Positions 52,885-63,187 of a DNA stretch of 63,363 nt are shown here, in pieces. A program made the translations under genes and the position numbers. Location of the stretch: positions 1 to 63,363 of the forward strand of contig JAICXY010000005.1 of NCBI GenBank assembly GCA_025934495.1, written 5' to 3'. This DNA is from Candidatus Nitrosocosmicus sp. Lineage in GTDB: Archaea; Thermoproteota; Nitrososphaeria; Nitrososphaerales; Nitrososphaeraceae. The notes below the pieces were generated by a model. It had not been told where the DNA came from, ran no database searches, and saw nothing but the letters and a program-made list of their open reading frames with translations. How positions within the stretch are numbered: position 1 is the stretch's first letter; each line of letters starts with the position of its first letter.

Positions 52885-52977
52885 TGCCGCCGGTGAGATT
52901 TGAGCTCACGACAGCTCGGTCTTCAGCTTCACCCTATTTTAATAGTCGAGTGCTCTTCCAGGCTGAGCTACGACGGC
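52885..52977 (-). tRNA. tRNA-Phe (GAA) with a 19-nt intron
   Basis: On the minus strand the 5' strand GCCGTCG pairs with the 3' strand CGGCGGC, followed by discriminator A (no CCA encoded). The D arm is GCTC...GAGC and the T arm GTGAG-loop-CTCAC. Removing bases 52928-52946 restores an anticodon stem CTCGG/CCGAG with loop CTGAAGA, giving anticodon GAA (52922-52924), phenylalanine. The mature tRNA would be 74 nt. The intron sits between tRNA positions 30 and 31, in the stem, and not at the common 37/38 place. Confidence 0.92.
52928..52946 (-). other. non-canonical intron of tRNA-Phe
   Basis: Sequence ACTATTAAAATAGGGTGAA on the RNA strand. It is the only placement that gives a perfect 5-bp anticodon stem; shifting by one base either way leaves a mismatch. 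The intron holds a small hairpin, CTAT-TAAA-ATAG. Archaeal splicing endonuclease cuts bulge-helix-bulge structures, and non-canonical sites like this need the broader-specificity enzyme found in some archaeal groups. Confidence 0.8.
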
Positions 52978-58257: not shown

Positions 58258-59629
58258 TTGAAAAAAGCATTAACTATTGCTGGAAGTGATTCTTCTGGAG
58301 GAGCTGGAATACAAGCAGATATAAAGACATTTTCTGCATTAGGATTTTATTGTTCAACAGTAATTACTATTTTAACTGCCCAAAATACCGAGACTGTTTC
58401 TGATATATTTATTACTCCATCCAAGTTTTTCAGAAATCAATTGTCATTCACAATAAATGACATTAAACCGGACATAATAAAAATAGGTGTATTATATGAT
58501 AATTCGATCATCGATGTAGTCCACGATAGCCTTTTTCAATCAAAGATTCCTATTGTTTTAGATCCTGTATTATTTTCTGGAACTGGAATTAAACTTTTAA
58601 AAGATTCAGCATATGATAATTTCAAAAAAAAAAATAATTCCAATTTCTTTAATAATCACTCCTAATTTACAAGAGGCTGAAATATTAAGTGGAAATATAA
58701 TATCGTCTGAGAAAGAATTAATTGAATCAGCTTATAAAATAATAGAATTAGGAATTAACAATGTAATAATAAAAGGTGGTTATGATATGGCCGCAAATTC
58801 AAAAATTTTTGATATCTTGTTGGAAAAAGATAGTAACAGTATTACAAAAGTATATAACAATAGATTAAAAATTGGTGAAACTCATGGAACAGGTTGTAAT
58901 TTTTCTTCATCACTGGCATCATTTATAGGCAAAGGATATAAAATAAAAGAATCCTTTTTTTTAGCAAATGCCTATGTAAAGGAGGGTTTGATGAATGTTC
59001 AAAAAATTGGGAAAGGTGTTGGAATAACAAATCCATTGTTTAATTTGTATGAAAATTCTTCAAAATATAAAATACTTTATAATTTGAATGATAGTATAAA
59101 AATATTGGAAGAAATAAAAAACTTTTATCTTTTAATACCCGAAACAAAAACAAATTTTGTCTATTCGTTAGAAAATCCTAAAAATCATGCTGATGTGGCA
59201 GGAGTTTTAGGTCGCATTACAAATATGGGGGAAAAAATCCGGACTCCAAATGTTGTAGAATTTGGGGCATCTAGCCATGTAGCAAATGCTGTTATTTCAG
59301 CAAATCGATTCAATAAGTTGTTGCGAGCAGCAATCAATATTAAAAATGACGATAAAATTTTAGAAATATGTAAAACGAATTTTACTTGTTCATTTTATTC
59401 AAGAGAGGATGAGCCACAAGAAAATAAAAATAAAGAAGGGCTTTCAATTAGTTGGGGAATCAGAATTGCATTGGAAAAAATACCTGATGCTGAAATAGTA
59501 TTTCATTCTGGCGATTATGGTAAAGAACCAATGATTATACTCTTTGGTAAAAATCCCCAAGATATAATTGATAAAATAAAAATTATAATCCATCATTTAG
59601 CGAAAACTAATGTTTTAAATAACAATTAA
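58258..59629 (+). pseudogene. thiDN: ThiD-ThiN (HMP-P kinase/thiamine-phosphate synthase), frame broken in an A11 tract
   Basis: The first part, from TTG 58258, has ThiD motifs: LTIAGSDSSGGAGIQADIKT, TILTAQNTETV, PIVLDPVLFSGTG. At the tract A11 (58624-58634) the frame runs to a stop at 58665. With one A fewer it continues perfectly: ITPNLQEAEIL, NVIIKGGYD, ETHGTGCNFSSSLASFI (ThiD's anion hole), and then the ThiN domain, PKNHADVAGVLGRITNMGEK, VEFGASSHVANAVISA, FHSGDYGKEPMIILFG. Total with the repair is 456 residues, normal for ThiDN. Everything else is intact, so it may be functional with slippage at the tract, a recent mutation, or a sequencing error. The gene makes hydroxymethylpyrimidine diphosphate and joins it to the thiazole to give thiamine phosphate. 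The nucleotidyltransferase gene follows by 16 bases. Confidence 0.88.
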
Positions 59630-59645
59630 TTTTTCCTAGATTATC

Positions 59646-60365
59646 ATGAAAGCAGTAATTTTGGCAGGAGGTCTTGGAACTAGATTGCAACCGTATACAT
59701 TCTTTATACCCAAACCTATGTTGCCTTTAGGAAACAAACCTTTATTAGAATATATTGTAGATTGGTTATCAAGTTCAGGTAAAATCGACCAGATAGTTTT
59801 ATGTGTAAGTTATCTGCACAGAACAATTGAGGACTATTTTGAGGACGGATCCCGTTTTGGTATTGAAATTAAATACGCAAGATCAGAAAGACCTTTGGCT
59901 ACTGCTGGTCAGCTAAAAACAGCATCAGACTTTTTAAATGACACTTTTGTGTGTTTATATGGAGATTCCATATATGAATTCCCTTTAAAAACAATGATCG
60001 AAAATCATATCGATTCTGATACATATATTTCAATGGCACTTGCTATGTATAAAACCAAACTGAAATATGGTTTTATAGATGTAAATTCTGACGATTCACA
60101 ACAAAAACGTGTTACAGATTGGAGAGAAAAACCTGAAATTTCGGGTTTGATAAATATTGGATGTTATGTTTTTGAGCCGGAATTTTTAAAGCTCATACCA
60201 AATTCAACTTCGTATGGGATGGATGATGCGGTAAGAGAATCTATTAGCCAAAATAAAAAGGTTCAAGCATTCATTGTAGAGAATGAGGGATTTATTGATA
60301 TTGGAGATAAAAAATCTTATTTGGAGGCCTATAAACAATATGTTAAAAAATTAGGCAAAATATGA
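59646..60365 (+). CDS. sugar nucleotidyltransferase (NDP-sugar pyrophosphorylase)
   Basis: 239 residues from ATG 59646. Nucleotidyltransferase motifs: MKAVILAGGLGTRLQPYT (residues ~1-18, G-G-x-G-T-R-L), IPKPMLPLGNKPLLEY (~25-40), LYGDSIYE (~104, D for metal), DWREKPE and NIGCYVFEP, and ENEGFIDIGDKKSYLEAY near the end. This is the RmlA/mannose-1-phosphate guanylyltransferase core without the C-terminal left-handed helix, so a short form. It makes an activated sugar (NDP-glucose, -mannose or similar) for surface glycans or N-glycosylation. It starts 16 bases after thiDN on the same strand and may be co-transcribed. No glycosyltransferase is adjacent. Confidence 0.88.
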   Translation: MKAVILAGGLGTRLQPYTFFIPKPMLPLGNKPLLEYIVDWLSSSGKIDQIVLCVSYLHRTIEDYFEDGSRFGIEIKYARSERPLATAGQLKTASDFLNDTFVCLYGDSIYEFPLKTMIENHIDSDTYISMALAMYKTKLKYGFIDVNSDDSQQKRVTDWREKPEISGLINIGCYVFEPEFLKLIPNSTSYGMDDAVRESISQNKKVQAFIVENEGFIDIGDKKSYLEAYKQYVKKLGKI

Positions 60366-60385
60366 CCATTTTTGATATGACTTAA

Positions 60386-61079
60386 TTATAGGACCTTCTT
60401 GAGTTTATCTGATACTTTTTTAAAAGTCTGATCATTGAATTTTATATTTTTAAAATGTGGTATGATGCCTATTGTTGGTACCTTTGTCAACTTTTCCATA
60501 AATGTGGGCGTCTTTATTTCTACAATAGAAGGTCTTTTGGGCATTTTATTGAATACTATTCCTCTTATAGGGATATCATAGTTCTTGCACATTTGAACGG
60601 TTAGCAAGGTATGATTAAATGTTCCTATTTGAGGGGTTGTTACAATAACTACAGATAATTTTGTTAATTTTATAAAATCAATTAAATTATACTTTTGATT
60701 GAGGGGAACCATTATACCGCCTATTCCCTCAATAATAATAAAATTGTATTTTTTTTTTTAAATATTTAAATTTTTCAAGTGCTATTTTGATACTTGGGGG
60801 TTTAATCTTTAGCATCTTACTTGCCATGTATGGAGATGCGGGTAACTTATAAAAAAAAGGGTTCAAATAGTTTTGATTCTCTTTCAAGTTTATTGATTTG
60901 GATAACAGAAATAAATCTTTGGAGTTGAATTTTTTAGAAAAAATTTTATCCGAGGTTGCAAAAGGTTTCATTACACAAATATCATCATAATCTTTGGATA
61001 ACCTCCATGCCAAAGATGCCGATATTAGAGTTTTTCCGATATTAGTATCAGTACCTATTATAAATAAACCTTTGGACAA
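60386..61079 (-). pseudogene. bioD: dethiobiotin synthetase, frame broken in an A11 tract
   Basis: From TTG 61079 it opens LFIIGTDTNIGKTLISASLA, the P-loop of BioD (GTDT-x-G-K-T), and continues CVMKPFATSD and FYKLPASPYMAS. The coding-strand run of 11 A (plus-strand T run 60749-60759) then shifts the frame, ending at a stop near 60729. One A fewer gives KKKYNFIIIEGIGGIMVPLN, the normal second BioD motif (EG-x-GG-x-x-VPL), and the protein runs on through VVIVTTPQIGTFNHTLLT and GIVFNKMP to a stop at 60386, 230 residues in all. Dethiobiotin synthetase closes the ureido ring of biotin using ATP and CO2. No other bio genes are near. As with thiDN, slippage, mutation or sequencing error could explain the break. 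Confidence 0.85.
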
Positions 61080-62440: not shown

Positions 62441-63187
62441 TCATGCTCTGGTATCGATCCGGATACACGGTGAAGAGGTATAGCTTGTATAGAAATCATA
62501 ATGTATCGCCCGACTAATTACATGTATTGCTATTTCAATAGTAATATTCGTAGTCAATTCACGCATTCCATTGTTTAGTTTTTTTAATTGAATGCCATTT
62601 ATATCATCCATACGCATACGTGTACAATTAGTGTTACGACCTATTGATTCTCTCTTCTCTATTGGAGTTGCCTCTACCACTATCTGTCTCTTTGAATTAG
62701 GTTCAAATAAACCAAATATTCCATTATAAATATAAAATCATCTTTCAATTCCTTGTCTTTTGATTTATTTTTTTAATTTTGTAGATATTAATACTTGAGG
62801 GTTAAAATAGATATTTTCCTGTAGTGCAAAACTAGGCAAAAATTCCGATCGATTTTCCATTGCATTTAAATTTCTTAAAACATCATTAACACAATCTTCT
62901 AGTAATTGTTGTGCATCAGAATTATCATAATTTAAATATAAAGTTGTGTTTTTGATCAACTTTTAAATTATCTTATTTATTATCCAATTATCGGGAATTT
63001 TTTTGAAATGTTTTATTAGTTTATCAATATGATGTGTTTTCCCTGAACCGCCCAAACCCATATTTTCATTTATTTTAAAGACTTTTGTTATAGGTGACTC
63101 TGATATTGATCCATCATCTAATGCTCCTTGACTATAACTTGCTATTGCAATACTATCAATATACTTTATTGCTATTGATGTAGTCAT
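62441..63187 (-). pseudogene. proteasome-like Ntn-hydrolase gene with three in-frame stops
   Basis: From ATG 63187 the protein begins MTTSIAIKYIDSIAIASYSQ, which has the Thr-Thr start and the '[IV]AIKY.D.[IV]AIAS' strand of proteasome-type Ntn hydrolases. It continues SPITKVFKINENMGLGGSGK and HHIDKLIKHF, the K33 and GSG-helix region. After a TAA at 62963-62965 the same frame carries on: LEDCVNDVLRNLNAMENRSE, YFNPQVLISTKLK. A second TAA at 62765 and a TGA at 62738 follow, then again the same frame to 62441. No frameshift is needed over ~750 bases. It looks like a recently inactivated gene. The last ~100 residues (VVEATPIEKRE...) do not match the usual family ending, so the assignment rests on the N-terminal half. 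Confidence 0.5.

Follow-up and report, generated by a model that had tools for sequence, protein, structure and literature searches.

Why should two neighbouring vitamin genes, thiDN and bioD, each be cut in two at a run of exactly 11 adenines? The genes lie in a window of 63,363 nt (the whole stretch of DNA analysed; G+C ~29%), corresponding to contig 59 in a draft genome of 200 contigs (3.56 Mb, 95.7% complete) whose host we take to be an ammonia-oxidising archaeon of the Nitrosocosmicus group. The first-pass annotation had listed three explanations—homopolymer error, recent loss of both genes, and slippage on poly-A, perhaps as a regulated vitamin off-switch. That list was the right one, and error was named in it as the most mundane entry. 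Error and recent loss taken together are the favoured part of it: a chance +1 change in tract length, either a miscall or an unfixed recent indel, very probably accounts for both tracts, and nothing points to a controlled switch.

Recomputing the frames bore out the first-pass tract lengths, positions and repaired products. The thiDN frame as it stands in the assembly ends at 135 aa; removing one A restores 456 aa, and adding one (A12) brings a stop at 126 aa. The tract sits 27% into the gene, and homology to the Phos_pyr_kin family flanks it without a break. The first part matches TIGR00097 (2e-40) and PF08543 positions 1–115, and the second resumes at PF08543 positions 113–245 before entering the ThiN domain (PF10120, 6e-51; also NF006346). 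This order, Phos_pyr_kin then ThiN, is that of the archaeal HMP-P kinase/thiamine-phosphate synthase fusion, and the gene is a ThiDN whose frame is broken in the present assembly.

The T11 of the plus strand is an A11 on the coding strand of bioD, which runs on the minus strand. Here the frame closes after 116 aa; removal of one A yields 230 aa and a further A (A12) brings a stop at 119 aa, the tract lying 46% into the gene. AAA_26 homology again flanks the tract, this time with a gap around it: the first part matches TIGR00347 (9e-12), PF13500 positions 1–83 and, by sequence, 1dts/1a82, and the second TIGR00347 (3.5e-13) and PF13500 positions 111–193. Coverage of both halves by these families, together with the P-loop, identifies the gene as BioD. 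Matches to either side of the two tracts thus mark one gene in two frames, as expected, for thiDN and bioD alike; neither has a further stop or frameshift, and the earlier description of both as otherwise intact stands. A search of the rest of the genome for a second intact bioD found only a distant P-loop relative. Elsewhere, the genome carries bioA, bioB and thiC at full length. For N. gargensis, complementation has established bioA, bioB and bioD as functional, its bioD rescuing an E. coli deletion (PMC6138646).

Table 1. Coordinates of the interrupted genes, their tracts and other features mentioned in the text.
Feature	Position	Strand	Description
thiDN, first part	58258..58665	+	ThiD (HMP/HMP-P kinase) N-terminal half plus out-of-frame tail, 135 aa, TTG start
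thiDN tract	58624-58634	+	A11
thiDN, second part	58613..59629	+	ThiD C-terminal half plus complete ThiN (thiamine-phosphate synthase) domain
Nucleotidyltransferase gene	59646..60365	+	Intact, between thiDN and bioD; synteny kept in nearest congeners
bioD, second part	60386..60712	-	TIGR00347 and PF13500 matches
bioD tract	60749-60759	-	T11 on plus strand
bioD (dethiobiotin synthase), first part	60729..61079	-	116 aa including out-of-frame tail, TTG start, P-loop GTDTNIGKT
PRC-barrel-like paralogue, tract	G000:C94:11970-11979		Member of a large family, out of frame at A10; fold named by eye, without a domain match
Unassigned open reading frame, tract	G000:C190:4697-4706		T10 at a frame change
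tRNA	52885-52977	-	Rfam match, 93 nt
Proteasome-subunit-like gene	62441-63187	-	Relic near contig end

The nearest congeners share the arrangement of thiDN, nucleotidyltransferase gene and opposite-strand bioD. Being on opposite strands, thiDN and bioD are not a single operon; their pathways differ too. Scanning for promoters and terminators gave signals not clearly above chance. Several independent congener assemblies break in or beside bioD and the nucleotidyltransferase gene (G001:C271, G003:C35, G005:C52/C58, G007:C92/C71 and G010:C172).

Comparison with close relatives, a check proposed in the first-pass annotation, covered both sites. The thiDN gene forms one uninterrupted frame in 12 of 14 congeners; the exceptions are G002, where it is split over two contigs, and G012, where it is frameshifted at a non-homopolymer. 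The latter was set aside as noise and not a true lesion, the same assembly also breaking thiC and bioA. At the thiDN site the closest species, G010, reads TTT AAA AAA AAA ATC, an in-frame A10 with the same codons. Only one other congener (G008, A8) has a long tract here, and most have it interrupted. The bioD gene is stop-free wherever it was found, with runs of at most 7 at the tract site; an in-frame A9 occurs there in G033, outside the genus. One congener, G003, lacks bioD in its assembly, but its thiDN contig stops just past the nucleotidyltransferase gene, and we do not count this as a loss. No out-of-frame tract was seen at either site in any congener examined. Near-identical strains for a direct comparison of tract length were sought among the genome contigs, the genus set and the viral contigs; none was found, the nearest species having ~70% protein identity.

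Both genes bear the marks of selection. Pairwise dN/dS against the three nearest species is 0.08–0.14 for each, with synonymous sites near saturation, and Tajima relative-rate tests with G014 as outgroup gave no excess of changes in the present genome (chi2 at most 1.6). The intervening gene, taken as a control, gave similar results. The further stops, indels and relaxed constraint of an old, decaying pseudogene were looked for in both genes and not encountered. Low dN/dS, the lack of acceleration and the intact bioA, bioB and thiC imply that thiDN and bioD were selected until very recently, or still are; a dN/dS of ~0.1 without acceleration is equally expected from a new indel and from a miscall.

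These data bear on a real, recent and fixed loss of both genes, which would turn the strain into an auxotroph for thiamine and biotin, supplied with both by its neighbours. Such a loss overlaps the real-mutation half of the favoured explanation, with the added claims that the mutation is fixed and that the lineage has lost both functions. It would require the simultaneous loss of two separate pathways through one type of +1 slip, in a genome where the other pathway genes checked (bioA, bioB and thiC) are intact, constraint is not relaxed, no second lesion has appeared and congeners keep both genes. We regard it as unlikely, though the distribution of breaks described below speaks in its favour.

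How unusual are the tracts themselves? The 3.56-Mb genome holds 85 A/T runs of 10 or more, of which the two in thiDN and bioD are the only ones in the window. Of the 83 beyond it, 54 sit in open frames that span 120 codons or more. Longer runs are no less often coding: the coding fraction is 0.56–0.66 for lengths of 4–9 and 0.71 from 10 upwards. Within coding sequence the longest class is almost always read as A on the sense strand (58 A to 2 T), a stronger bias than the ~4 to 1 seen at lengths of 6–8, and long runs of the Lys-Lys-Lys type are routine in this AT-rich genome. Coding A tracts of at least 10 are more numerous in this species and its three nearest relatives than in other members of the genus.

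Requiring Pfam matches on both sides, we confirmed 25 runs of 10 or more as in frame, including A11, A12 and A14. Among the genes that carry them are those for TrpD (A12), a helicase (A12), HemL (A14), MPG synthase (A11) and a Y-family polymerase (A11), and also those for HisRS, ArgH, DNA ligase, Cdc6, thiolase, MoaE, TruD, SMC, PolB, SRP54 and PurM. Three runs are confirmed as broken, those of thiDN, bioD and one PRC-barrel-type paralogue, in whose close homologues a single frame runs for up to 341–394 aa. A fourth coincidence of a long run with a frame change, the T10 listed in Table 1, lies in an open reading frame without a homologue in 14 congeners. Elsewhere, apparent shifts of coding potential at A/T runs of at least 7 nearly all prove to be gene boundaries (trpG/trpD, top6B/top6A, phaE/phaC and others). 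With such ordinary boundaries set aside, no break is left among ~160 coding runs of 7–9; of the 28 runs of 10 or more confirmed by homology, 3 are broken (Fisher p 0.003). Breakage thus tracks run length and strikes the longest class alone, the pattern to be expected of replication slips, PCR stutter or miscalls.

What, then, added the base? Each A11 would be a one-base-longer form of the Lys-Lys-Lys A tract that is common and in frame elsewhere, and long A tracts are prone to slip. We infer two candidate sources: the extra base could quite plausibly have entered during library preparation, sequencing or assembly, and almost as plausibly through a very recent, probably unfixed, replication slip. 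Either way, both genes would have encoded working, selected enzymes until the +1 event, and the two open reading frames as written would not yield ThiD or BioD. Against a pure miscall, the same assembly has 25 long tracts in frame and is not generally poor at them; that most are called in frame also speaks for a fixed loss. All three confirmed breaks lie in genes that are possibly dispensable given vitamins or paralogues, a pattern that gives a hint of real mutation rather than random miscall and likewise suits a fixed loss. The two breaks also sit together, in neighbouring genes, which would again suit a fixed loss and is unlikely by chance: placing 3–4 broken tracts randomly among the 85 put two within 2.2 kb in 0.7–1.3% of trials, a post hoc comparison. 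Their clustering within ~2.1 kb is thus mildly unusual (p about 0.01, post hoc) and no more than suggestive; a local consensus problem or a joint relaxation of selection would either of them explain it.

The same survey weighs on whether the cell could read through the tracts. RNA polymerase might skip one A in part of the transcripts and so make enough full-length ThiDN and BioD, possibly with control of dose. Such rescue is known from AT-rich endosymbionts, where 12–50% of transcripts are corrected for some frameshifted genes (PMC5009743), with Buchnera and Blochmannia as established examples (PMC5009743, PMC3017870), and the endosymbiont genes show normal evolutionary rates, as do those here, where a new indel or a miscall would give the same. 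The frame, however, needs a −1 (or +2) product, since +1 products end at the early A12 stops given above, and a one-base deletion is the disfavoured direction. Homopolymer deletions are much rarer than insertions in the bacteria measured, and in a survey of Buchnera transcripts across the genome 151/157 insertions against 16/57 deletions fell in homopolymers, with no frame-restoring case (PMC5574713). For Baranov and co-workers, slippage is unlikely where coding sequence shows no shortage of long runs (PMC1088944). The steady coding fraction found here matches that criterion, indicating tracts that are not purged as strongly slippery and hence unlikely slippage, albeit on small numbers. Nor is there the sign of a conserved device that a frameshift kept between species would give, no congener being out of frame at either tract. 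A literature search for slippage by archaeal RNA polymerase returned nothing. Slippage rescue is accordingly improbable, and the full proposition, that both A11 tracts truly exist and have become fixed, with an archaeal polymerase skipping an A often enough for functional ThiDN and BioD, is a shade more so; if true, it would extend slippage rescue of frameshifted genes to an archaeon, beyond the endosymbionts.

A contingency switch, in which tract length flips between 10 and 11 within the population to turn vitamin synthesis on and off, fares worse still, and we judge it very improbable. Both tracts are within the slippery range, and at thiDN the closest relative has A10 where this genome has A11. 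But the tracts are not conserved as tracts, with runs of at most 7 at the bioD site among congeners and interruptions at the thiDN site in most; they also lie well inside the genes and not at the 5′ end. Equally long tracts in unrelated essential genes, where they would be senseless as switches, argue against a vitamin switch. The regulated off-switch, called exciting in the first-pass annotation, is thereby left unsupported and unlikely: comparable in-frame tracts occur in many unrelated core genes, length is not avoided, no congener is out of frame and rescue would need deletions. Ribosomal frameshifting on the A tract, which would yield full proteins from the sequence as written, is the least credible and can be given hardly any weight. 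A-rich slippery sites do support a −1 shift in some archaeal genes and viruses (PMC5009743), whereas the frame needed here is +1 and sites of the A_AAA_AAR type give −1.

A chance +1 change in tract length is an ordinary homopolymer indel, whether as an error or as a recent pseudogene. The present cases resemble it in the one-base change, the restriction to the longest runs, the otherwise intact genes and the intact relatives; they differ in being two events in neighbouring genes, 2.1 kb apart. Likeness to the poly(A)-tract frameshifts of Buchnera and Blochmannia (Tamas et al. 2008, as cited in PMC3017870) lies in the AT-rich genome and in a single indel within a long A tract of a gene that is otherwise intact and constrained. 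Unlike those bacteria, the host is an archaeon with a large genome and not an endosymbiont as far as is known; and while some endosymbiont frameshifts persist between species, those described here are common to no relative. Phase-variable contingency loci share the principle that tract length sets a gene in or out of frame; they are unlike these housekeeping vitamin genes, where the tract is not conserved at its site.

Taken at face value, the annotation describes a thiamine and biotin auxotroph, a call that the evidence does not justify; both genes are for now best annotated as probably functional in the population. More broadly, dozens of coding A tracts of 10–14 lie in frame in core genes of this Nitrosocosmicus-group lineage, which makes the lineage a useful place to measure the fidelity of archaeal RNA polymerase on such sequences.

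Two further features of the window deserve mention. Near the contig end, the first 74 aa of the proteasome-subunit-like relic match PF00227 (1.1e-6), and the same frame runs on through several stops. The tRNA was detected by Rfam (45 bits) and missed by ARAGORN; its length, set against a 71-position model, suggests an intron.
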